Virus record (IMG/VR): IMGVR_UViG_3300028840_000745
Span: 1-43,562 of that record
Source: a virus
Direction: 5' to 3' (one strand)
Length of the DNA: 43,562 bases
Part shown: positions 10,820-26,483 of the stretch, one piece after another
Layout of the letters: each line of letters begins with the position of its first letter
How positions within the stretch are numbered: position 1 is the first letter of the stretch
The notes under the pieces: model-generated
Database searches by the model: none
Seen by the model: only the letters and a program-made list of their open reading frames with translations
What the model was told of the DNA's origin: nothing
Translations under genes and position numbers: made by a program

Positions 10820-11055
10820 TGGCTCAAATCGACGATTTGAACGTATCCATTTCTAGCATGAACCCGGAGGAAGCTTTCGCGTTGGTTAAAAGCCTACGTG
10901 AGTCGCGAAGGATAAAGAAGAAAGTTACGAAGCCCAGAGGATCAACCTCCTCAGGAGCTTCGAGAGCTAAGCCGAAAGACCCACTGGCTAACTTAACCCA
11001 AGAGCAGAAAGCTGTTCTTATAACCATGCTAGAAAAGGAGTTAAACGGAAAATGA
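10819..11055 (+). CDS. Small basic protein, 78 aa
   Basis: The start lies at the previous stop (TAATG) behind AAGGAGAGATA. A first helical segment (NPEEAFALVKSLRESRRIKKK) is joined by a Ser/Lys/Pro-rich linker to a second helix (LTQEQKAVLITMLEKEL). Its four-base overlap with the ParB-methyltransferase gene and constant coupling suggest a partner or adaptor, but no function is known to me. Confidence 0.65.
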   Translation: MAQIDDLNVSISSMNPEEAFALVKSLRESRRIKKKVTKPRGSTSSGASRAKPKDPLANLTQEQKAVLITMLEKELNGK

Positions 11056-12440
11056 TTAAGGAAGGAACATTGGCTGTAATTCCACTGGGAGATATAGATT
11101 ATGGAGATCGGGGACGTCAAGATTACAAAGACATTGCGGCACTTGCCACCTCTATCAGAGAACATGGACTCGTACATCCGATCGCAATTATGCCGCATCC
11201 AGAAGCAAATGGAAAATACCTGTTACTTGCCGGAGGGCGTCGCCTACGGGCCTGCGAGCACCTTAACAGCGAGAGAATTGAGTGTAAGATTTTCCCAGGT
11301 AGGTTATCGGAGCTTGAAATTAGATCCATTGAGTTACTGGAGAACATTCAACGAGAGGATCTCGAATACCACGAGAAAGTTCGGATGGCCAAGAAGATAC
11401 GAGATCTTATGGTCGAAATACATGGTCGTAAGAAGTCCACATCACCTGACGCGCCTGGCGTTAGCGACCGTGACGTAGCTAAGATGATTGGCATTACTCA
11501 TGGCAAACTGTCACAAGATATCGGTCTTGCGGAGACCATGGAAAAGTTTCCAGATGTTCCCTGGGAACAGTGTAAGAACAAGGCCGAAGCCATGAAGCTT
11601 AAGGAAAACATCAGTCGGGTATTTATCCGACAAGAAGCTGCTAAACAGTTTGAAGAGGCTATCAGAGAAGACAATGGAGCACTGACGTTGAGAGATGCTC
11701 AGAGACAGAAGCTTGCCTCGTTTTACCTTGTCGGCGATTTCTTCGAGATGGTTAAGAAAGTCCCCTCCGAACTATTTAATCTCGTTGAGGTTGACCCTCC
11801 CTATTCCATCGATCTTGGAAAGATCAAGAAGAAAACGGGTTTTGGTAACTACAGTTACAGTGAAAAGGGTTATAACGAGATCCTCAAAGAGGATTATCCG
11901 AAGTTTATCTTCGAAACCCTTTCAGAGTGTTATCGTGTGATGAAGAAAGATTCCTGGCTGATCTTCTGGTTTTCGCCAGACCCGTGGTATCCCTTCATCC
12001 TTGAAGCTATGCGGAAGATCGGCTTCAACGTTCGTGGTCTGCCATGTGTTTGGGCCAAGGGAGAAGCGGAAGAGGGTGAGCTCGTAGAAACCACAAGCGG
12101 TCAGACCAACACGCCGATTCGGCACCTGGCAAGCTCCGTAGAGTTTTTCTTCTATGCTAAGAAAGGAGACCCTAAACTCAACAAGATGGGTCGGACAAAC
12201 CATTTCGGTTTCAAGCCCGTCCCACCAAGTAAGAAGATCCACCCGACAGAAAGGCCACTCGAGCTAATGGACGAGATCCTGACGACCTTCGTCATGGAAG
12301 GCTCACGGGTGTTAGTACCATTCGCAGGAAGTGGTAATACGTTAATCTCAGCTTATCGGAATAAGATGCTTCCGATAGGTTATGATCTCGGTGAAATCCA
12401 CCGGGAAGGATTCCTAACAAGGATTAAGGAGGTAATATGA
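11052..12440 (+). CDS. ParB-like/DNA methyltransferase fusion
   Basis: Residues 1-110 are a ParB/Srx-type domain, with AGGRRLRAC (60-68) and ENIQREDL (about 97-104); a helical HTH-like region follows (VAKMIGITHGKLSQDIGLAE). The C-terminal part is an amino-methyltransferase with DPPY (248-251) ahead of the SAM-binding FAGSGNT (424-430), the beta-class order for N6-adenine or N4-cytosine methylation. It probably methylates phage DNA to resist host restriction, the ParB part giving DNA or CTP binding. No restriction nuclease is adjacent. The length is normal for this phage fusion. Confidence 0.9.
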   Translation: MIKEGTLAVIPLGDIDYGDRGRQDYKDIAALATSIREHGLVHPIAIMPHPEANGKYLLLAGGRRLRACEHLNSERIECKIFPGRLSELEIRSIELLENIQREDLEYHEKVRMAKKIRDLMVEIHGRKKSTSPDAPGVSDRDVAKMIGITHGKLSQDIGLAETMEKFPDVPWEQCKNKAEAMKLKENISRVFIRQEAAKQFEEAIREDNGALTLRDAQRQKLASFYLVGDFFEMVKKVPSELFNLVEVDPPYSIDLGKIKKKTGFGNYSYSEKGYNEILKEDYPKFIFETLSECYRVMKKDSWLIFWFSPDPWYPFILEAMRKIGFNVRGLPCVWAKGEAEEGELVETTSGQTNTPIRHLASSVEFFFYAKKGDPKLNKMGRTNHFGFKPVPPSKKIHPTERPLELMDEILTTFVMEGSRVLVPFAGSGNTLISAYRNKMLPIGYDLGEIHREGFLTRIKEVI

Positions 12441-13888: not shown

Positions 13889-14470
13889 ATGGAACTATTC
13901 TTTGATACGGAAACTTCGGACAAGATCAACTTCAAAACTCAACTCTATACCGATGATGACTTTCCCTGGGTAGTGCAGTTGGGAGCTGTTCTGGCAGAGG
14001 AAGGGATAGCTTTTGCCGAGGTCAATGTTCTTGTTCAGGCCGACGGCAGAACTATCTCAGATGGCGCAGCCAGGGTGCATCAGATAGACACTGAAACTGC
14101 TGATCGTTGCGGGATTGCTGAGCATCTTGTAGCCACGTTATTCACCAGTCTAATGAACCGTGCGGATATACTTGTCGCACACAACTTTGACTTTGATGTG
14201 CAGATGATGGCTGCTATGCTCTTGAGGAATAACCTTAGTCAGAGAGCCAAGATTCTCATGTACGAGAAGCCATACTATTGTACCATGAAAGAAACCACAG
14301 AGCTTTGTAATCTACCTGGGCCCTATGGCCCTAAGTGGCCTAAGCTCTCGGAACTCCATGAGTTCCTATTTGGCGAAGGGTTCGTCGGTGCGCACGATGC
14401 GATGTATGATATACGTGCAACGATGAAGTGTTTCTATAAACTGAAAGAGGAAGGACATATAGAGCTATGA
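13889..14470 (+). CDS. DnaQ-like 3'-5' exonuclease (DEDDh), 193 aa
   Basis: I chose the ATG at 13889 behind AAAGGAGAACC; an upstream in-frame start runs into the previous gene. Exo I is FDTETS (Asp6, Glu8), Exo II is AHNFDFD (about 104-110), and Exo III has His and Asp in HDAMYDIRAT (near 169-178), the DEDDh type. It should degrade single-stranded 3' ends or proofread. The adjoining polymerase has its own intact exonuclease domain, so this may serve recombination or nucleotide salvage. It overlaps the polymerase start by four bases. Confidence 0.87.
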   Translation: MELFFDTETSDKINFKTQLYTDDDFPWVVQLGAVLAEEGIAFAEVNVLVQADGRTISDGAARVHQIDTETADRCGIAEHLVATLFTSLMNRADILVAHNFDFDVQMMAAMLLRNNLSQRAKILMYEKPYYCTMKETTELCNLPGPYGPKWPKLSELHEFLFGEGFVGAHDAMYDIRATMKCFYKLKEEGHIEL

Positions 14471-16911
14471 GCACTTACGTACGTCCAGAAGGTGATCCCG
14501 ACAGGGCTAAGATAATTATCGTCGGCGAACAGCCCGGGAAGACTGAGGTACAATCCGGTCGGCCGTTCGTCGGACCTGCAGGGAGAGAACTAAACGAGTG
14601 TCTTAAGGCCGCTGGCGTCATTCGCCAAGAGTGTTACATAACAAACTTTGCTAAGGATTTCGATCAACACGTTAGTGAGTACCTGAACCTTTCAACTCTA
14701 ACGTTCAGTGAGAAGGGACTCAAGTATCGAGATCTTTTGATCGGCGAGATCAATGATGCCAAAGCGATAGCAGTCATTGCGATGGGAAACTATTCTATGA
14801 CTGCTCTTACTAACATTAACAAGCCTGGCATAACCAAGTGGAGAGGTTCGGTATTAACTGACGATCGAATGCCAGGAAAATATATCATACCTACAATCCA
14901 CACTTCAACAATACTCCCGCCCAAGTTCGTTTATTTAAACAAGTTCCTTATCCAACTAGACATCAAACGAGCGAGAGTTATTGCAGATAACGGACATACA
15001 CCAAAGTTCCGTAAACTTATTATCAAACCGACTTACTTTGAGATTATGTCTTATCTCGCCAAGATTGAAAAGGAGGGAACTGATGGCAAGATTATATACT
15101 TCGATATTGAGCTTCTCAACGAGGAAGTTTCCTGCATTTCATTTGCGTATCGGGACGATGAAGCATTATGTATACCTTTTGTTGCGGCGGATGGAGATTA
15201 CCTCACCATCGAGCAAGAAACAAACGTCTTCCAACACGTGGCAGATATTCTTGAAGATGGTGCTATCAGGAAAGGTGGACAAAACCTCGGTTTTGATACG
15301 CACTTTCTACTTCGTCGTTACGGGATCAAAGCTAAAAATTTGGAAGACACGATGGTTGCTCAAAGAATCATCATGCCAGACTATCCGATCGGACTTGACT
15401 TCATTACCTCAGTGTGGACTGATCATCGATATTACAAGGATGAAGGAAAAAGGTACTTCGGTACAGGTGGGGAACAGCTATGGAAGTATAACGCTACCGA
15501 CTCTATCATGTGCGCCGAAGCTTTCCCGAAACAGATTGAGAAGTTGGAGCAACAGGGCAATATCGAAACTTACTATCGGCAAGTCAAGCTAATCCCACCT
15601 CTAGTATATATGCAAGAGCGTGGTATCAAGATGGACATGGACGGCATACGTCAGAAACGAGAGGACCTGGCAAAGGAAGCCGAGCAACATCAAGAGAAGC
15701 TGAACAAGATCGCAGGGTTCCACTTAAATCCTAACTCACCCAAACAACTGAAGGAATACTTCTACGGTCGGCTGAAGTTTCCAGCATATAAGAACCGCAG
15801 AACCAAAGCACCTACCACTGATGACGATGCGATGAAACGTCTGGCGAAGAAAGGAGTTAAAGAAGCGAATCTCATTCGCAAGATCCGCAAGTGCGTCAAG
15901 CTCTCAGGTACTTACCTGAATGAAGATAAGTTCGACCCTGATGGTCGTGTTCGTTGTTCGTTCAACCCAGTTGGTACAAGGTTCTCACGACTTTCATCGT
16001 CTGCCAATATCTTTGGTACAGGTATGAACCTGCAGAACGTACCACACGAGCTGTTGAAGTTCTTTCTATTTGACGACAATTATGTCGGCTATCGTATTGA
16101 TCTATCTCAGGCCGAAAACCGTATCGTTGCTTATGTCGGCAACATAACACCAATGATTGATTGCTTCGAAAGGAAAGACGATGTACACAAACTCACCGCA
16201 TCTCTTATATTTCAAAAGCCTGCGTCCGACATTACGACTGAGGACGGCACTTGTTCTTTGGGAGACGGTTCCCACAATGAAAGATTTTGGGGCAAGAAGG
16301 CAAATCATGCTCTTAATTACGATCTAGGCTATAAATCATTTGCACATATCTACGAAACTACTGAGAGGGAAGCGCATTTCATTGTCGAACGTTATCACAT
16401 GGCATATCCTGGAGTGCGTAATAACTTTCATGTTTATGTTCGTAAGTGCCTTCGGGAGAACCGGATCATTACAAATCTTATGGGACGCCGGACCCTCTTT
16501 ATGGATCGGTGGGGAGATAAACTGTTTAAGGATGCTTACTCTTGTATCCCCCAGGGAACGGTTGGAGATGTTATTAACGAGCGCGGAGTTATTGAGCTTT
16601 ACTATCAAGAAAAATATGCGCTATCTGAACTGCTCCTCCAAGTCCATGACGATGTAACATTCCAGATCCCTAAGTCTGTACCTTACGAGGAACATGCCAA
16701 GATGATCCTCGATGTCAAGTCTAAGCTCGAGATTCCATTAACTACCCACTATGGCAGGGAATTTATAATTCCTGCGGACGTTACTATTTGTCCCCGAACA
16801 CTGGCCAAGGAAGATGGCAAGGACCTTAAATCCCACGAGGTTCCTTCAACTGCAGTTGAACTTGCTGAAATTATTCGCACCACGGTGGAGTCTTATGAAG
16901 CGAGAGCTTGA
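14467..16911 (+). CDS. Family A DNA polymerase with N-terminal UDG domain
   Basis: It is the phage replicative polymerase. Residues 1-180 form a family 4-like uracil-DNA glycosylase fold (GEQPGKTE, GRPFVGPAG, and HTS where HPS is usual); few cysteines are present, so no Fe-S cluster and doubtful activity. The exonuclease (about 205-390) has DIE, NLGFD and YNATD. The polymerase has motif A DLSQAENR (Asp545), motif B GKKANHALNYDLGY and motif C VHDD (Asp728). Tyr618 occupies the position of E. coli Phe762; published surveys link Tyr/Phe there with lytic phages. A His seems to stand where E. coli has catalytic Lys758, as far as I can align. The C-terminal 15 bases overlap the helicase gene. Confidence 0.93.
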   Translation: MSTYVRPEGDPDRAKIIIVGEQPGKTEVQSGRPFVGPAGRELNECLKAAGVIRQECYITNFAKDFDQHVSEYLNLSTLTFSEKGLKYRDLLIGEINDAKAIAVIAMGNYSMTALTNINKPGITKWRGSVLTDDRMPGKYIIPTIHTSTILPPKFVYLNKFLIQLDIKRARVIADNGHTPKFRKLIIKPTYFEIMSYLAKIEKEGTDGKIIYFDIELLNEEVSCISFAYRDDEALCIPFVAADGDYLTIEQETNVFQHVADILEDGAIRKGGQNLGFDTHFLLRRYGIKAKNLEDTMVAQRIIMPDYPIGLDFITSVWTDHRYYKDEGKRYFGTGGEQLWKYNATDSIMCAEAFPKQIEKLEQQGNIETYYRQVKLIPPLVYMQERGIKMDMDGIRQKREDLAKEAEQHQEKLNKIAGFHLNPNSPKQLKEYFYGRLKFPAYKNRRTKAPTTDDDAMKRLAKKGVKEANLIRKIRKCVKLSGTYLNEDKFDPDGRVRCSFNPVGTRFSRLSSSANIFGTGMNLQNVPHELLKFFLFDDNYVGYRIDLSQAENRIVAYVGNITPMIDCFERKDDVHKLTASLIFQKPASDITTEDGTCSLGDGSHNERFWGKKANHALNYDLGYKSFAHIYETTEREAHFIVERYHMAYPGVRNNFHVYVRKCLRENRIITNLMGRRTLFMDRWGDKLFKDAYSCIPQGTVGDVINERGVIELYYQEKYALSELLLQVHDDVTFQIPKSVPYEEHAKMILDVKSKLEIPLTTHYGREFIIPADVTICPRTLAKEDGKDLKSHEVPSTAVELAEIIRTTVESYEARA

Positions 16912-18146: not shown

Positions 18147-18500
18147 ATGAGTCCTGAGAACATTGCAATGACCTTACACCTTTTACTGTGCAAGAAACCG
18201 CACGCAGATAACTGGGATGCCCACGAGAAATATCCAGGTAGTTGTACCTACTATCTCGAGGGTCAGCTTGAAGATCCCTGGTCTCAACCCTGCCGAGCTG
18301 AGTGGTTAGAGAAAGCTAAAAATATATTTGCTTTATCAGGGTTCGAAAAAGAAGAAGACCTCCAGTTTATGATGAATAAACTTACGGAGGTCTTGAGAAA
18401 GATAGAGTTTCTACTCGTTCAATACAAGTCACTGAACGATGTGGTTATTACTATTATATCAGAGGCCCTCGAGTCCCTCAAGTCCAGGGAGTCCGGTTAA
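18147..18500 (+). CDS. Hypothetical protein, 117 aa, last + strand gene
   Basis: The start is behind GGGAGGAAATTATCG directly after palindrome site 4. The front has several Cys and His (CKKPH, SCTYY, PCRAEW) without a clear zinc pattern; the rest is helical. The last 14 codons overlap the 3' end of the converging 1613-residue gene by 42 bases, and no terminator separates them. As the only gene behind site 4 it may be separately controlled. Confidence 0.6.
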   Translation: MSPENIAMTLHLLLCKKPHADNWDAHEKYPGSCTYYLEGQLEDPWSQPCRAEWLEKAKNIFALSGFEKEEDLQFMMNKLTEVLRKIEFLLVQYKSLNDVVITIISEALESLKSRESG

Positions 18501-21500
18501 TCCCTTGCTTTTGGGTTCGTACTTTTTACCTATTAGTATGTAATAAGGATTAGTCTCACCACGTTTAATGGCTCGGCGGGACTTGCCAAGTTGCTGTGCG
18601 CCAGGGATTCCAAGGTATTTCATCCCATACTCCCAAGCTGGTCCTACCTTGTCATACAAATCACGATCAAGAGGATCAGTTAATAGTGATGTAGCCAGCT
18701 TATCCAAGGTCTCGTAAACTGCCCCGCCGAGTGCCACGTTATATCTTGCCTTACCACCAATACCTGGAACTGGCTCAAGGAGTTCACCCAGAGTCTTGCG
18801 CACAACAGCTGAAATTTTCTCTCCATCATTGATAGCATCAATCATAGTTCTTATTGGCGTCGGGAACGGAGAACTAGTTCCAAGTAAATCTTCAAAGAAC
18901 ACGTTCACTAAAGCTGTAGCTACCATAACATCAAATACTGCTCTGGCTCTTTGTTTCGGCGACATCTTCTTACCCTTACCAGCCCCAAAAACATCTTTGT
19001 ACATGAAGTTCCAATCGTTTATAGTAAAGGTCTGGAGAGTAAAGATCGCACGACCAAGTGCCGCTCTCTGAATCGGAGGTATATCTCCTGTCAACGCCGT
19101 ACCTTGAGTTTTAGCTACGACAGAGTCTGCGTATCTTCTAATAACTTTAGGATCAGTGATTCCTTGACTCTTTGCAAACCTCTCCGATGCCAACCAAGTT
19201 GCAATCGCCGGAGCTTGGTCAAACTTCTTAAGCATCCACAGACTCTTATCAGTAAACCCCTCACGAGAGATCGCACGACCTAAGAACTCCTGCTTCCTCA
19301 GCTTCAACACTCTTGATTCTCGGATAGCCCTCTTAGCTTCGCCCGGATTCATCATATCTGTAATGCCTTGAAGAGTATGAATCCAGCCATTATATCTTGG
19401 CGAACCACGAAGTGCTGAGAGCTGGACAAATGGAGATCTTAACAGAAAACCGAGTATGGAGACGGAAACGTTTCTGGATCTTTTCTTTAACCAGCTCTCC
19501 ATTGCTTTGCTTCCAAGGTTTAGAGGATTCTCCACATCTCGGCCAGCCAGCTGGTTAGCCCATCTTCTGAACCACGTAGCAAGCTCAGGCTTATCCTTAT
19601 CCAACCTATAGTATTTCTGTTTTCCTTCAGCATCAAAACCATCTTTCAATGGCTTGCCAAGCTCATACAGCTTAGCAATAAAAGGAGTCATATGCTCGTG
19701 TCGGAAGGAATCAAAGATATACTGATCAAAGATCTCAAAAGCATTAAGCTTCATTTCCTTCTTCAGGCCCTCCTTACTTCTACGTCTAGAAAATTTAAAG
19801 GGCTTTTCTTTGAAGTTAACATATCGACCTTCAACTATATGAGGTTTGTCAAACACCGTGTTAGGTCCTAGTCCAAGCTTCTGTGCAAGAGTTTCTGAAT
19901 ACATTACAGTGAAATAGTTTTCCAGCAGTTTCATCGGTGCTAAGTTGTTAAGCTTTCTCATCTGATTAATAATAGGACCACGTGCGTCGAGAATCCTCCG
20001 CATGAACTCATAGACCTTCATCTCTTGCGGTGTCAACTCGGGGATATCCTCTACTTTCCAACCATCCCTTTCCATCCGCGCTCGGATATCTTTCTGTTCC
20101 CACATAGCATATGTTCCAATCCTTCTTCCAGATCGTCTATTTAAACCTTTCGATAGTTCTAATCGTTGCTTTACAACTCCTTCAGCACCATCTTTGATCA
20201 TCCCCTCACGTTCCCAGTAGTTCTCTCGGAAAGCTCGTCCAAGTCCTTGCTGCTCGAGAGGAAGGTGTCCTTCAATCTCATCTATCATAAACTCAGTTGG
20301 GACAAACTCGCGAGTAATCCTTGTAGCTCTTAACGATCTTTTTGGCTCAGCCAAACGCTTCAAAGCATCCAATACACCCGCATATATTTTTGGTCTTTTA
20401 ATTACTTCAGTTCCAACAGTTCGCTCCATCTTACCTGAGTTGACAACTTCCCCAGTCTCGAACTCTTCCAACCCGAACGAGGTCTCGCCCATCTTCATAC
20501 TCTGAGACATTTCGTCAGCCATCTTCTGAGCGGCTCTCGCTTGCTTCTCAGTATACCCACCAATCTTCATTACATGTTCGTAGACTGAATCACCAGCTTG
20601 AGCAGCCATGGTAACCAGCCTTCTCAAGCGCTCACGTTTTGCAGGATCTAAGTCCCTGAAACTTATCGAACCCCGTTCATCCAGAGTGTCTTTAATCGAA
20701 TCAATTACTTCCTTCAGGATTTTCCTAAACTCGAATATCCTGGCCTCTCTCGCAGCATACTCCGGGCTGACCTCCTTAATTTTCCGAGCAGTTCCTACTT
20801 CAGGTTTCGGTTCAATAGATTCAGGTTTTATCTTCTCAATAACGAAACCGTCAAGTTTAGGTACAAACTCAACGATACCCTCGATGTTATTCTCCTTAAG
20901 AACTTTCAGAGCTGATTGGGGATCCACAAAGGGCCGTCCATTACCATCGAGTACAATATCGACTAATAGTCCAGCCTTAGATTTCTCTCCTGTCTCAGGA
21001 TTCCATCTCTGCCAAGGATGTTTGCCCTCTGTCATGCCAGGATTCTCTGTGGGTTTAACTTGTTTGTCCAGGAAATCTTTCCGCTTCCTCAGCCACTCAA
21101 GCATCTTACTGCCACGCTCCGCAAGTTCGTAATGCTTGGCCATCTCAGCATTATCAGTCACCACTTGCAAGTTGTCTGCAATAAGCTCGATATCTACCGG
21201 CTCTCCTTTCTCCCACGCTCCAAGTCTTTCGTAAAGACCCTCTAATTGATTACTGATCGTACCTTCGTCGAACTCACCAACAGCTTCTTCGATCCTCGAA
21301 CGTCGTTCGGTATGATATTTCTTAATTCCCTCATCTATCATTAGGGCTTCTTTGTCGGTCATAGCCAGTGGTTCAGCAACCCTGTACTTATCACCTACCT
21401 TGATGATCTCAAGATCCGATCCCCGACCTTCTTGAAGCTTCCTTCTCTTACCCTTAGCTCTTGGCCCTGTACGATAAGCCTCAGCTTCCGCAAAGGTATC

Positions 21501-23300
21501 AAACTCCTTACCTCCCCAAAGATCATAATCGAAGTTCGTTTGTATTCCTTCTTCTTCCACGAACTCAGCTTTAGTAAACTCAGGAACAGTAGGTTCTTCA
21601 ACCTTCGGAGCTTCTACGGGTTTCTCCTCTATCCCCTTAAAAGCTCTCAATCTCTTAGCTGGAGTATCACCAGAAGCCATGTACTCTTTTAGAGCAGAAT
21701 TAGGAACACGAATATCACCAGCTTCTTTCGTTCCACCTAACTCATACAGCATATCACTAACCCAATCGTTAAGTGGAGAGGTCTTTAAATCCTTTCCTGA
21801 CTCAGCGATCACTTGCAGAACGTTGTCCAGTTTCCGCATCAGGTATCTGTTCTTACCTATACCTTTACCTTCTTTTCCAACCACGTTCTCAACAACTACA
21901 TGAGTTCCCTCATCATTTAGAAGAATATCATATCCGTGATCGTGAACGTCCTTCTCAATCTTAAGAAGCTTCTCCTGCAGCTCGCCGGTTCTAACTTTCT
22001 TGTCCATCTTACGAATAGCTTCACTTGCCCGAACTTTGACATTTCCTTTCTCATCAAAGAATGGTTCGAAGTGAGCTTCGGTTAAGCCTTCATCAACGGG
22101 AGGAGCTTCTTCAAATCTCTTCTTTACCTCCTGTACCTTTCTACTTATGTTCTCGGGAGTAACATCTTTAGCCTCCAGCTGAAAAGAAGCCCTTCCACGA
22201 CCACCAACATCTACATCGAAGCTATACCAACCGTAACCTGCCTTACGAAACTCGGCGTCTTCAATACCTTCAGCTATCGACTTAGCTTTCTCAACTACTT
22301 TGGGGTTCACCCCGTCTTCCGCAGCGTCCCGTACACGTACCGGTCTTTCGCCTGCGATAGGCTCTCCCCCTTCCGCCGCTTCAGCTTCCCGGACTTCGCC
22401 AACTGGTTCGCCTGCTTCTTCAATTTTCTCTCCAGCTCTTCTGGCATCTTTAGGTACCTCCTCTGTTTTTAGTCTTTCAAGAGCACTCTGAATTTTCTGA
22501 GCGTGGCTTGCACCCTCGGCCCGAGCTCCTTCCTTCTGCTCTTCAATAACCCTCCGAAAAGGCTCGTAAACTCCTGGCTCTTCAGCCATTGGTTCTGGTC
22601 TCGCTCGACCCTCAAACGCTTCGATTTCAGCTTGACGTTGCTCACCCGTACCCTTAGTCCATCGGTTCATCCAATTCTGTTTTTCCTGAGGAGTACGGAG
22701 ACTCTTAAACTCCCCGATAGCTTCTTCTGAAAGGTCAAGATCTTCAAAGAACTCATCAATAGCCTTAACAGTATCAGCTTTATTCCCAGCATCAGCAGCT
22801 TCCTTAATACTTTTATACTTACGAAAAACTCTTCGTCCGCCAAGACCAAGAGCACCAAGAACAGCAAGCTCAGATACAAAACCACCTATTAAGCCCAGCC
22901 TCGGGTCGAGCTTCGAAAGCTGTTCATCAGTAAAGTGTCCCACTGCTTCAACAGGCTTGAATAACGTACCAATAGTCTCAGCAAACTTTTCACCTGCTGG
23001 GGTAAACGGTTGAGCTAATGCTCCAGACATAAGTTCCTGGAAATCCTCAGTGGCCGCTCTTGTTGTCGCCGGATCAGCTCCCATCATTCCACCAATAACT
23101 GGCCCAAGAAGGGAAGCCAGACCAGAGGCACCAAATGCTAATCCCATACCAGGAATCTGTCCACCTATATCTAAACCAGCCTTGGCTATACCCTTGGCGT
23201 AATCAGCGTAACCACTCTCGTTAAATGGGATAGGAGCAAATCCGCCAGTCTCTTCACCAGAACCAGCCTGCAACTTCTGTAAAGCAGATTCAAGACTCAT
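18459..23300 (-). CDS. Large internal virion / polyvalent protein, 1613 aa
   Basis: It is probably packaged in the head and ejected with DNA, as in podoviruses. The N-terminus has glycine-rich hydrophobic stretches (residues 40-75 and 125-155) that could insert in membranes, followed by long charged helical segments. A compact region near 330-560 and long coiled coils lead to a C-terminal 600 residues with hydrophobic runs (VSILGFLLRSPFVQLSALRG, YADSVVAKTQG, FTLQTFTINDWNF) typical of C-termini of giant phage polyvalent/ejection proteins. I see no lysozyme or transglycosylase motif. It ends in a GLEGLEGL repeat. It is the last gene of the late operon. Confidence 0.75.
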   Translation of the reverse strand: MSLESALQKLQAGSGEETGGFAPIPFNESGYADYAKGIAKAGLDIGGQIPGMGLAFGASGLASLLGPVIGGMMGADPATTRAATEDFQELMSGALAQPFTPAGEKFAETIGTLFKPVEAVGHFTDEQLSKLDPRLGLIGGFVSELAVLGALGLGGRRVFRKYKSIKEAADAGNKADTVKAIDEFFEDLDLSEEAIGEFKSLRTPQEKQNWMNRWTKGTGEQRQAEIEAFEGRARPEPMAEEPGVYEPFRRVIEEQKEGARAEGASHAQKIQSALERLKTEEVPKDARRAGEKIEEAGEPVGEVREAEAAEGGEPIAGERPVRVRDAAEDGVNPKVVEKAKSIAEGIEDAEFRKAGYGWYSFDVDVGGRGRASFQLEAKDVTPENISRKVQEVKKRFEEAPPVDEGLTEAHFEPFFDEKGNVKVRASEAIRKMDKKVRTGELQEKLLKIEKDVHDHGYDILLNDEGTHVVVENVVGKEGKGIGKNRYLMRKLDNVLQVIAESGKDLKTSPLNDWVSDMLYELGGTKEAGDIRVPNSALKEYMASGDTPAKRLRAFKGIEEKPVEAPKVEEPTVPEFTKAEFVEEEGIQTNFDYDLWGGKEFDTFAEAEAYRTGPRAKGKRRKLQEGRGSDLEIIKVGDKYRVAEPLAMTDKEALMIDEGIKKYHTERRSRIEEAVGEFDEGTISNQLEGLYERLGAWEKGEPVDIELIADNLQVVTDNAEMAKHYELAERGSKMLEWLRKRKDFLDKQVKPTENPGMTEGKHPWQRWNPETGEKSKAGLLVDIVLDGNGRPFVDPQSALKVLKENNIEGIVEFVPKLDGFVIEKIKPESIEPKPEVGTARKIKEVSPEYAAREARIFEFRKILKEVIDSIKDTLDERGSISFRDLDPAKRERLRRLVTMAAQAGDSVYEHVMKIGGYTEKQARAAQKMADEMSQSMKMGETSFGLEEFETGEVVNSGKMERTVGTEVIKRPKIYAGVLDALKRLAEPKRSLRATRITREFVPTEFMIDEIEGHLPLEQQGLGRAFRENYWEREGMIKDGAEGVVKQRLELSKGLNRRSGRRIGTYAMWEQKDIRARMERDGWKVEDIPELTPQEMKVYEFMRRILDARGPIINQMRKLNNLAPMKLLENYFTVMYSETLAQKLGLGPNTVFDKPHIVEGRYVNFKEKPFKFSRRRSKEGLKKEMKLNAFEIFDQYIFDSFRHEHMTPFIAKLYELGKPLKDGFDAEGKQKYYRLDKDKPELATWFRRWANQLAGRDVENPLNLGSKAMESWLKKRSRNVSVSILGFLLRSPFVQLSALRGSPRYNGWIHTLQGITDMMNPGEAKRAIRESRVLKLRKQEFLGRAISREGFTDKSLWMLKKFDQAPAIATWLASERFAKSQGITDPKVIRRYADSVVAKTQGTALTGDIPPIQRAALGRAIFTLQTFTINDWNFMYKDVFGAGKGKKMSPKQRARAVFDVMVATALVNVFFEDLLGTSSPFPTPIRTMIDAINDGEKISAVVRKTLGELLEPVPGIGGKARYNVALGGAVYETLDKLATSLLTDPLDRDLYDKVGPAWEYGMKYLGIPGAQQLGKSRRAIKRGETNPYYILIGKKYEPKSKGLTGLPGLEGLEGL

Positions 23301-23305
23301 CGTTA

Positions 23306-24043
23306 CTATTTTCCTTTTTGACTTAAGTAATAGGCACGAAGAAGTTCAGACACAGTAACTCCTTCACTCGCAGCAATAGCCCTTACTTGATCAAGATTTT
23401 TCCCTGCAGGTAATTGAACTCTAACGGCTTTTCTTAAAGCTGGTAGCGCAGCTGAATCGTCCCACACATAGCCGTACGAACCTTTGCCGTAATCGTTGAA
23501 CTGTTGAACATAAGAAATCGCCCTATCGTCATGTGGACTCTCAACGAGAAAAGCTTCGGCCTGTCTCGCATCGTCAGCTCGTGCTCTCTGCTCAGCATCG
23601 GTCATGCCACTATCAACTTTCTTGTTAAGGATAGCATAATCAGCTTCAGTACCTTCACCAGCAGCAATTCTCTGCATAGCTTTTAGCTGCTCTTCCGCAA
23701 GATTAGCCTGCTGATAATGTAAATACGCAGCGGCATTACTGCCCTCACGCAGAGCACTACGATAGAGGTTCATACTGGATTCCTTGATAACATCAAGCTT
23801 GAACTTCAGCTTATCCAGCCCTTCCTTGGACTTCATGTTCTCGCCGAGATTATTGTAGTAATCAGCCAATGCTTCAGCACTGAACTTCTTAATCTCACGA
23901 TCAGCGTCCTTACCTTCCATGTTCTTGATAGCAGTCCAGCGATCAGTGATAGCTTTGTACTCATTGATATCACCAGTTCTGGCTGCTTGCGCTGCGGAAG
24001 CTTTAGCGGCTTCATCAAGACGAAGCAGGTCAGCTATCTGCAT
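23306..24043 (-). CDS. Internal virion protein, downstream half of probable frameshift fusion
   Basis: From the ATG at 24043 the product is a 245-residue, helical, alanine-rich protein with coiled-coil character. Yet the same frame stays open upstream to about 24176 and reads as normal protein (PSADLTGLAPEQINAIAGQ), with no ATG, GTG or TTG and no ribosome site before 24043. That and the slippery site at 24154 indicate that it is chiefly made as a -1 frameshift extension of the gene at 24151-24654, giving about 449 residues. It follows the order of internal core proteins of podoviruses. Confidence 0.7.
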   Translation of the reverse strand: MQIADLLRLDEAAKASAAQAARTGDINEYKAITDRWTAIKNMEGKDADREIKKFSAEALADYYNNLGENMKSKEGLDKLKFKLDVIKESSMNLYRSALREGSNAAAYLHYQQANLAEEQLKAMQRIAAGEGTEADYAILNKKVDSGMTDAEQRARADDARQAEAFLVESPHDDRAISYVQQFNDYGKGSYGYVWDDSAALPALRKAVRVQLPAGKNLDQVRAIAASEGVTVSELLRAYYLSQKGK

Positions 24044-24150
24044 CCTATTACGATCTCTCGCTATCTCCTGCCCAGCTATAGCGTTGATTTGCTCCGGAGC
24101 TAACCCTGTCAGGTCGGCGCTGGGTTCGCCGCCTCCCCCTAACAGGGCAG

Positions 24151-24654
24151 TTAAAAAGGGGCGTTCGGACCGTAGAACATGCTACTCATATCCATGTAGC
24201 GTGGTTTACTTCCACTCCCCGTTTCCCTTGGTTGAGTAAGATTAAAGGTCATCTCATCAGACCCGATGTTCCCCTCTCCATCAGGCTTTCCAGGCTTCAG
24301 GGTCATCGATGTAGGCCCAGCTACTCCTTGGGGAGTCAAGCCACCGGAGAACAAGCTGGCTAACATATTCCTCGTATCCAACTGTCCCTGGCGTTGCTCC
24401 TGCAAAGCCTTGTTAGCCAAACTACTCTGACCCATAGCCGTACCAATCCCAGCAAAAGGATTGTCCGGAGCAAACCCTCTCCCAAGCATATCTCCCATAA
24501 TCTGGAACATCTCAGGATTATTTTTGTACATACTACCTAACTTCTGAAACCACCCACCGCCTTGCGGAGCATTCTGCAAGTCCATCTGGTTGAAACCAGC
24601 TAGGGCATTACCTATGTCCAACGCATTAAAATCGAAACCAAAACCAGCCATCAT
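24151..24654 (-). CDS. Virion-associated protein, 167 aa; frameshift upstream half
   Basis: The start follows AAGGAGGTA; either of two adjacent ATGs (24654, 24651) may be used, the second having better spacing. The protein is Gly/Met/Gln-rich with short helical segments (WFQKLGSMYKNN, FQIMGDMLG) and a Pro/Gly-rich tail, as in small internal or linker virion proteins. Its stop directly follows CCCTTTT, and a fraction of ribosomes should continue into the next gene. It sits between the glycine-rich protein and the ejection protein. Confidence 0.65.
   Translation of the reverse strand: MMAGFGFDFNALDIGNALAGFNQMDLQNAPQGGGWFQKLGSMYKNNPEMFQIMGDMLGRGFAPDNPFAGIGTAMGQSSLANKALQEQRQGQLDTRNMLASLFSGGLTPQGVAGPTSMTLKPGKPDGEGNIGSDEMTFNLTQPRETGSGSKPRYMDMSSMFYGPNAPF
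24154..24160 (-). other. Slippery heptamer CCCTTTT, probable -1 frameshift site
   Basis: On the - strand the codons CCT TTT TAA end the gene at 24151. The heptamer C-CCT-TTT fits X-XXY-YYZ, so a -1 slip keeps pairing at CCC and TTT and bypasses the stop into the open downstream frame. A stem CCCTGT/ACAGGG with an inner GGCG/CGCC begins about 10 bases after it and could stimulate slippage. Confidence 0.6.
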
Positions 24655-24661
24655 TACCTCC

Positions 24662-25543
24662 TTAAATAAAAGCGCTTAAAAGTCCAATGCCAGCTCCTAC
24701 ACCAGCACCTATTCCACCAAAAGCAGCCCCTGCAGCAGCACCACTTAACGCACCACCAATCGCCGATTGAGCGGTAGATGGTTGACTCTTTCCAGTTCCA
24801 CCTGTACCACCCGCAACAGCGCCGAGCATATTTGCACCATATTGAAACGTCTTCAAGTCCCAGAGAGCATCAGCTTCATCTATCGCAAGATTCTGATCAG
24901 TTTCCTCCTTAACAGCCACAAGAGCCAACCGATTGAACTCAATGGTATAGTGCATCACGTCTCTTGCATAATCCACGTGTTTGAGTTGCATCTCGGTGAT
25001 TCTTCCGGCCTGTTGAAAGATCAACTCAAGTCTCCCGAGAGATAGCTTGGCCCTCAAACTCGCTTCGTAATTAGCCACATCACGGTTCCTGAAAGCCCAG
25101 ATGATAGCCTTTCCAGACTGGAATGAACTCGACATAACAGCGTTAATATCTCGCATCCCACCCTCAAACTGCGGAAGAACCTTGTTTTGAATCTGATCAT
25201 CCAAAACATCCGCATACGCAGCTACCTCGCCATCGATGTAGGTATCATCTATAACCCCATCAACTCCAGACTCCGCCGCATCAACTGCCGCTTGCCAATC
25301 AGCCTCGTGATCCAACGCTGCAACTATCGCATCAAACGCAGTAACTGCTGTATCCCACTCAGTGATATAGCTGTCAGGATCAGCAGCTGCCGCAGCGGCA
25401 AACGGACTCGCAGCTTGCGCCGCAGTCATAGCTGTACCTACGTTTGTCAACCACGTTGAGTGCCAAGTTTCAACATAAGCAGGATACGCTATTCTACCAG
25501 CAGAGCCACCCCCGCCACCTCCGGAACCACCGCCACCACTCAT
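24662..25543 (-). CDS. Glycine-rich virion protein with C-terminal glycine-zipper, 293 aa
   Basis: The N-terminus is a run of Gly/Ser (residues 2-15), followed by Ala-rich helical segments and a long helix (residues 130-230) with coiled-coil character. The C-terminus is a glycine-zipper-like hydrophobic run (GGALSGAAAGAAFGGIGAG and onward) resembling membrane-inserting segments of ejection proteins. It is probably part of the internal core or translocation channel. It is preceded by palindrome site 5 and TGGAGGTGTAAG, so it probably heads a control unit with the three genes after it. Confidence 0.65.
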   Translation of the reverse strand: MSGGGGSGGGGGGSAGRIAYPAYVETWHSTWLTNVGTAMTAAQAASPFAAAAAADPDSYITEWDTAVTAFDAIVAALDHEADWQAAVDAAESGVDGVIDDTYIDGEVAAYADVLDDQIQNKVLPQFEGGMRDINAVMSSSFQSGKAIIWAFRNRDVANYEASLRAKLSLGRLELIFQQAGRITEMQLKHVDYARDVMHYTIEFNRLALVAVKEETDQNLAIDEADALWDLKTFQYGANMLGAVAGGTGGTGKSQPSTAQSAIGGALSGAAAGAAFGGIGAGVGAGIGLLSAFI

Positions 25544-25555
25544 CTTACACCTCCA

Positions 25556-25578
25556 CTATGGTTATTTTTTAAACAAAG
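25556..25578 (-). promoter_or_regulatory. 23-bp palindrome, site 5
   Basis: Read on the - strand the halves are CTTTGTTTAAA and ATAACCATAG. It contains the stop codon of the gene at 25562-26005 and ends 12 bases before the start at 25543, with the ribosome site beginning immediately after. Confidence 0.65.
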
Positions 25579-26005
25579 GAAAAGAAATATATCTATACGA
25601 AGTATCTCCACCAAACTCCTCGGCCATCTTAACGACATGTGGATTAGCAGAGTACGCCGTAACCTTCGCACAGCCCATGGACTCAGCAAACTTTGCAACA
25701 GTACCAAAGGCTATCGCCCAACTATCCTTATCTAACGGTTCTACCCCGTAAAGACTATATAGCAAAAGGTGCATCTCTCCTGAGATATCATCTACCACAA
25801 TCTGCGTGGTTGCTATAGCGTTGATCCTTCCTGATTTACTATTTGTATTTACCCAACAGTGCATCTTTTCAGTCAACATATCTTCCAGGATATTTAACAT
25901 TCTCCGGTTTGAGTTACCTGTCACTGGTGGCAAGGCCCTCTCGATAGCCTCCTTTAAAAAGTCCCAGTGTTTTGAAATTTGCTCAGGCAAAAGTTTTATT
26001 AGCAC
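25562..26005 (-). CDS. GNAT-like acetyltransferase-fold protein, 147 aa
   Basis: I chose the GTG at 26005 because GGGAGAG lies six bases ahead; the longer frame to 26086 would overlap the upstream gene by more than 100 bases. The pattern of strands around INAIATTQIVVDDISGEMHLLLYS, a helix (AFGTVAKFAESMGCAKV), TAYSANPHVVKMAEEFGG and a final strand matches the small GNAT-fold proteins in podovirus structural modules (T7 gp13-like position). Whether it acetylates anything or is only structural is not clear; a Q/R-x-x-G-x-G/A acetyl-CoA loop is not evident. Confidence 0.6.
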   Translation of the reverse strand: MLIKLLPEQISKHWDFLKEAIERALPPVTGNSNRRMLNILEDMLTEKMHCWVNTNSKSGRINAIATTQIVVDDISGEMHLLLYSLYGVEPLDKDSWAIAFGTVAKFAESMGCAKVTAYSANPHVVKMAEEFGGDTSYRYISFPLFKK

Positions 26006-26483
26006 CCATCTCTCCCAAGTTTGGGCCGAACGTAACCTCGCCCAGTTCGGCAATTTCCTCATCTTCTCCACGAGGTGAGAAGTCAAACGATAAACTTAGC
26101 AGTCCCGACTCTGCTTCCTTCTTCGAAGTAATAGCAGGTTTTCCACTCTCCTGCATAGGTTGTGGCGCCACTATAGGTTGGTCAGTTCCACCCTTCTTCT
26201 GCGATGCCGCCTGTTGAGCGTCAGATTGCTGTGAAGATCCACCCCTCTGTATAACTGTAGCTCCACCCTTATCCTCTTCTTTCCAAGGCTCAGGAACAAC
26301 GGAATCTCTTTTAATCCTCGGTTCCAAGCCACGATTTTCCCTGATCCTATCTTCTCTCATCTTAACAAGAGGAGGTCTATTATCACCAGTAATCCCTATC
26401 TGGCTAGGATGGCTTTTATACTTCTCCCTAAGATTAGCTTGCTGCTGATTCCATGCGCTAGCTACTTCTTGCGGTGTTGGCAT
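25983..26483 (-). CDS. Disordered virion-associated protein, 166 aa
   Basis: The start overlaps the stop of the nozzle gene (TAATG). The product is rich in Gln, Lys, Pro, Glu and Ser with little hydrophobic content, so mostly unstructured; the last 35 residues (LSLSFDFSPRGEDEEIAELG) may bind a partner. Its end overlaps the GNAT-like start by 23 bases. Such linkers often connect nozzle and internal proteins, but no family is recognised. Confidence 0.6.
   Translation of the reverse strand: MPTPQEVASAWNQQQANLREKYKSHPSQIGITGDNRPPLVKMREDRIRENRGLEPRIKRDSVVPEPWKEEDKGGATVIQRGGSSQQSDAQQAASQKKGGTDQPIVAPQPMQESGKPAITSKKEAESGLLSLSFDFSPRGEDEEIAELGEVTFGPNLGEMGANKTFA

Follow-up and report, generated by a model that had tools for sequence, protein, structure and literature searches.

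The window analysed here, a virus record of 43,562 bases, belongs by its gene set to a podovirus with an SU10-type capsid (SU10_MCP, PF17236, E 2e-37). Within its ejection module, on the minus strand, lies a gene split over two reading frames, with the following features:

24662..25543, minus strand: upstream neighbour of 293 aa with a Gly-rich C terminus, anchor of the survey; homologs lie in the same place
24151..24654, minus strand: 0-frame ORF, N-domain protein of 167 aa; its profile matches both split and fused relatives
24154..24160, minus strand: slippery heptamer C_CCT_TTT
24149..24153, minus strand: 5-nt spacer between heptamer and hairpin, holding the stop TAA
24103..24148, minus strand: stimulatory hairpin, from folding and from covariation across loci
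23306..24154, minus strand: C domain in the -1 frame, 282 aa after the slip, the frame being open from 24181
18459..23300, minus strand: downstream neighbour of 1613 aa; a similarly large ORF lies in the same place in two relatives (L002 and L031)

The upstream neighbour has a weak Pfam match to P22_gp7 (E 0.029) and is probably a gp14/gp7-like ejection protein, and the downstream neighbour is, by position and size, probably the gp16-like one. The order of gp14-like gene, split gene and gp16-like gene is kept in relatives. From this synteny only, the product of the split gene is presumed to be the middle (gp15-like) ejection protein, an internal virion protein; its packaging and ejection are inferred, no cultured member of the group having turned up. 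The protein found no match in Pfam, PHROGs, PDB or BFVD, with the reservation that such proteins diverge fast and that the models are of modest confidence. The C domain is modelled as mostly helical (pLDDT 72) and fold searches with this model returned nothing below E 0.3, while the full-length model of a fused relative (L009) has a mean pLDDT of 57.5. Matches of the C profile to TAL repeats covered 21 residues of helical motif only and were dismissed.

Some other genes of the window deserve mention. The gene at 25562-26086 (minus strand), between the tail-tube-like and gp14-like genes, is kept in many relatives and has no Pfam family; the listed TTG probably lies upstream of its real start, because the similarity of relatives begins near residue 25-28. 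Judged by eye, 14467-16911 (plus strand) seems to encode a family A DNA polymerase with a uracil-DNA-glycosylase-like N part, and 11052-12440 (plus strand) a DNA methyltransferase joined to a ParB-like domain; a Desulfofustis phage has a "ParB-like partition protein" at the place matching the latter.

Anatomy of the proposed slip site

The 0-frame ORF (24654-24151) ends in CCG AAC GCC CCT TTT TAA, with the heptamer C_CCT_TTT at 24160-24154 and the stop TAA immediately 3' of it, and thus has the X_XXY_YYZ heptamer in the 0 frame that is the mark of canonical bacterial -1 programmed ribosomal frameshifting. The -1 frame, whose translation begins LTALLGGGGEPSADLTGLAPEQINAIAGQ..., passes through the heptamer and has no stop from 24181 to 23306; fusion of the N and C parts would yield a protein of 449 aa. 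The sequence-only reading, which had described the ending CCT TTT TAA, a -1 frame open to 23306 and a fusion of about 449 residues, is borne out on these points. It was also right that no start or ribosome site precedes 24043: the earliest ATG, GTG or TTG of the -1 frame is the ATG at 24043, 107 nt beyond the stop of the N ORF and 3' of a conserved DLxGLxPE motif, and no well-placed Shine-Dalgarno (SD) sequence is present upstream of it. In close pairs of sequences, substitutions in the -1 frame 5' of any ATG avoid the second codon position. With no stop in its way, conservation as protein and no separate start, the -1 frame has what a frameshift requires.

Relatives of the split gene

Single-protein searches of viral contigs returned nothing, and it took alignments of two proteins, the capsid and the gp14-like neighbour, to collect 235 viral loci. 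The analysed set comprises the 131 distinct IMG/VR loci, window included, in which the neighbour is present and followed by 400 nt or more. Neither DNA searches nor tblastn detected a relative of the split gene in named phages. The best pointer from the window's portal was Desulfofustis phage LS06-2018-MD01 (40%), with weaker ones to Vibrio, Microcystis, Caulobacter and PaP2-type phages; the positional counterparts in Desulfofustis phage LS06, VS-ABTNL-3, Kuura, Mel-JY34 and PaP2 aligned poorly and gave no convincing signal. Six loci (L243-L248) are capsid homologs in GTDB MAGs labelled Clostridia, Nanohaloarchaea, WOR-3, Brevinema and Micrarchaeum. Because several of them are whole-phage-sized, they probably represent phage DNA that was binned with unrelated genomes, and the labels probably say nothing about hosts.

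A short first ORF followed by a second one was found in 53 loci, with the second ORF in the -1 frame in 39, in the +1 frame in 10 and in the same frame in 4. An in-frame CCCTTTY lies in the overlap of 21 of the 39 -1 splits, the window counted, and in none of the 14 pairs of other relation. At the rate found in 329,352 codons of other genes on the same contigs (8.8e-5 per codon), 0.05 would be expected in the 598 overlap codons. One further -1 split has CCCTTTA and four have AAACCCT or AAATTTT, so that a canonical heptamer marks the split in 26 loci in total, window included. These loci are related and not all independent; many are very divergent, though, and the N parts of many relatives are only 13-30% identical to that of the window. 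Candidate heptamers in L163, L207 and L071 were dropped, since they are not at a hairpin-bearing junction. One -1 split (L054:14440-14530) has a strong hairpin (CCCCGTC/GACGGGG) without a canonical heptamer, its sole slip candidate being C_CCC followed by TGG TAG.

The N and C profiles match the single-ORF relatives collinearly, N before C. The existence of such fused frames, together with the proneness of homopolymers to indels, could suggest that a base is simply missing from the CCCC TTTTT run through a sequencing or assembly error or a fresh indel, and that the gene is a plain single frame, which would have refuted the sequence-only reading. No raw reads are available to check this. However, the heptamer-bearing break recurs in 25 other loci from many metagenomes, and it also occurs at AAACCCT and CCCTTTC, where there is no long run; the arms of the downstream hairpin (see below) would moreover have no reason to covary. 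With relatives breaking at this place at different heptamers, we regard a missing base as very unlikely.

The second ORF might also be a gene of its own, translated from ATG 24043 or by ribosomes that re-initiate once past the N stop, with no fusion made. About two dozen relatives do have separate ORFs, although some are counted so by default, as the label "separate" was given to every split locus without a signal (24) and an own start is not proven for each. In many of the split pairs without heptamer an SD sequence and an ATG lie at the junction (L015, L030, L086, L121 and the MAG-derived L245), and these are separate genes. Relatives of this kind were what the sequence-only reading had named as evidence against itself, but those with a clear SD and ATG lack the heptamer. 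The first start of the window, in contrast, is 107 nt past the stop, behind DLxGLxPE and without a well-placed SD, and that of another relative (L055) is 224 nt past the stop of its N ORF. For the window, two independently started genes therefore have very little in their favour, and a -1 frameshift remains the better reading.

A covarying hairpin downstream of the slip site

The stem that had been proposed 3' of the slip site is present. Its 11 bp begin 5 nt 3' of the heptamer, as expected of a downstream RNA structure, with the 5' arm at 24148-24138, a loop of 24 nt at 24137-24114 and the 3' arm at 24113-24103 (minus strand; arms GCCCTGTTAGG/CCTGACAGGGT). With an MFE of -27.7 kcal/mol (z -2.7), which was equalled by 2 of 200 shuffles, the window's own hairpin is only moderately unusual. 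Its 3' arm codes for DLTGL.

Stronger evidence comes from the comparison of loci. At 49 junctions of both polarities, that is, with the long or the short product made by the shift, the hairpin usually starts 5-6 nt downstream. Compared with other windows along its gene, its MFE ranks in the best 5% in 21 of 26 long-by-shift candidates and in 16 of 26 short-by-shift candidates, the latter including three discarded false junctions. For 44 junctions, base pairing was assessed between a 5' region positioned by the heptamer and a 3' region positioned by the DLxGL codons: arms of one and the same locus gave a mean of 9.3 contiguous pairs, as against 6.5 (sd 0.25) for swapped arms, and none of 20,000 permutations reached the observed pairing. 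The same outcome was obtained in each polarity class separately. Upstream, 24 of the 49 junctions have an SD-like stretch that ranks in the best 10% of positions along the gene; this optional stimulator of frameshifting is absent at the window's own junction.

One might also consider slippage of the RNA polymerase at the C/T run, producing mRNAs with one extra base, and the window does have a short homopolymer (T5) there. In relatives with AAACCCT or CCCTTTC no run is of sufficient length, however, and the hairpin at 5-6 nt, the frame-specific codon choice and the upstream SD-like stretch fit a ribosome. Transcriptional slippage is thus the least credible of the explanations considered. The programmed -1 frameshift that the sequence-only reading had put forward is supported by the heptamer, the covarying hairpin, the conservation in very divergent relatives and the collinear fused relatives; the comparison yielded both single fused frames and a heptamer kept in many -1 splits.

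Fused relatives with a probable slip site of opposite outcome

Our initial view that the fused relatives have no recoding had to be abandoned, as slip sites are found in frame at their joints. In 23 to 28 single-frame relatives, an in-frame slippery site at the same junction is followed by a hairpin and an early -1 stop; many fused ORFs have (T/C)TA AAC CCT or CCT TTY in frame at the joint. Asn-Pro pairs are written A_AAC_CCT in 16 of 16 cases at the joint and in 2 of 116 elsewhere in the same genes. The -1 stop comes within three sense codons in 21 of 23 fused relatives, compared with a background of 40%, so that a shift there would release a short product. A slip site with the outcome opposite to that of the window was unexpected and is not visible from the window alone.

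Less canonical sites also occur. A few fused relatives combine a plain tetramer with the same hairpin (C_CCT in L101 and L107, T_TTT in L134 and L160). YTC CCT CTT with the same kind of hairpin, in a +1 or -2 relation, was found in L023 (near 18930-18990), L090 (codon 155) and L020 (codon 203), giving a long product once and a short product twice; the direction of the shift and the tRNA pairing were not worked out. The cassette is not universal, since about 42 of the 72 single-ORF relatives, with the label of L157 corrected, lack a recognised signal.

A quick tree built from the gp14-like neighbour (129 rows, many weak forks) requires at least 12 changes between the long-by-shift and short-by-shift states. 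Even the rows nearest the window are mixed: L014 and L009 are fused, with a slip to the short product, and in L023, L008 and L087 the slip leads to the long one. The labels on the tree are automatic and include non-canonical sites, and the near-duplicate L157 was wrongly scored as having no signal.

Discussion

No other explanation of the split gene comes close to a programmed -1 frameshift that joins the two ORFs, although there is no protein or reporter evidence. Anatomy of the site, conservation and covariation of the arms are direct observations; that both products are made is inferred from them, and so is the efficiency of the shift. We are highly confident that the gene is expressed in this way, with most ribosomes making the 167-aa N protein and some the protein of 449 aa. 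Most ribosomes would read the 0 frame to TAA and release the N-domain protein. Some would pause at the hairpin (24148-24103), where the Pro and Phe tRNAs on CCT TTT may re-pair with CCC TTT, and would then continue in the -1 frame into the mostly helical C domain of 282 residues. C_CC.U_UU.Y is among the efficient frameshift motifs in E. coli (PMC4066793). The likely purpose would be a fixed ratio of free N to N+C protein from a single initiation site, serving the middle ejection protein of this podovirus. Relatives would obtain the same two products with reversed polarity, the 0 frame giving the long product and a -1 shift to an early stop the short one, or from two separately started genes. 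Since all signal-bearing arrangements and the separate-gene form allow a free N domain, we infer that its ratio to the C-domain protein matters in the virion core, which is not shown.

Tail chaperone and coat genes are the best-known sites of frameshifting in phages. With the lambda G/GT tail assembly chaperone and its kin, our case shares a phage morphogenesis gene, a -1 extension and two products at a ratio. Those, however, are chaperones of long-tailed phages that stay outside the virion and are not homologous by position; the split gene of the window does not lie before a tape measure gene of a long-tailed phage. We know of no short-by-shift form of a G/GT-type frameshift. Reviewed phage frameshifts concern tail chaperones and coat or tail proteins, and at the tail-chaperone position several phages shift in other directions (PMC5009743). 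Virion proteins of two lengths made by recoding are described for gene 10 of T7 and T3, Lactobacillus phage A2 and Listeria phage PSA (PMC5009743), but these are major coat or tail proteins and not part of an ejection module. The one precedent that we found is gp39/gp40 of Alteromonas phage vB_AspP-H4/4, for which a single sentence describes a putative -1 frameshift, also annotated as such, in an internal virion protein of a podovirus (PMC5658483; MF278336). It concerns a different gene of the module, in an Autographiviridae phage, where the N part is endolysin-like and the protein to which it is joined is very large and gp16-like, and it rests on a single genome, without comparative or experimental support in that paper.

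The bacterial dnaX (tau/gamma) likewise has a slippery heptamer, a 3' hairpin and an upstream SD-like stretch, the last found at about half of the phage loci. As expected for our fused relatives, its shift soon meets a stop and gives a short product, whereas a shift of the window's type makes the long product, and polarity reverses among the phage relatives. The gene is different, too, as is the heptamer (AAAAAAG versus CCCTTTY or AAACCCT).

T7 gp15 and P22 gp20 share with the split gene the position between gp14/gp7-like and gp16-like genes, but no sequence or fold match to its protein was found. The fusion of 449 aa, with its C domain predicted mostly helical, is within the size range of gp15-like proteins (P22 gp20 471, CUS-3 gp20 449; PMC8954989). 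A review of ejection proteins mentions no frameshift (PMC8954989), and we found no earlier description of one in a gp15-like gene in the open-access literature, although an earlier report elsewhere is possible. While the mechanism of -1 frameshifting is known, its occurrence in a gp15-like gene and the repeated reversal of polarity appear to be new.

Taken together, we consider it reasonably likely, though well short of established, that in a whole group of uncultured podoviruses the stoichiometry of the ejection apparatus is set through a recoding cassette conserved in the gene of the middle ejection protein, that this cassette has flipped between long-by-shift and short-by-shift at least 12 times and was sometimes replaced by two genes, and that selection keeps a free N domain beside the C domain and not a particular frame. 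Both polarity forms would provide the same pair of products from opposite defaults, and their repeated reversal is a natural experiment on what the frameshift is selected for. The 3' arm of the hairpin doubles as code for the conserved DLxGL motif, with RNA and protein constraints sharing the same bases. The frameshift also explains "split" genes that annotation will call two ORFs or errors, and its conservation among the ejection genes suggests that the DNA-ejection machine follows a dosage rule.
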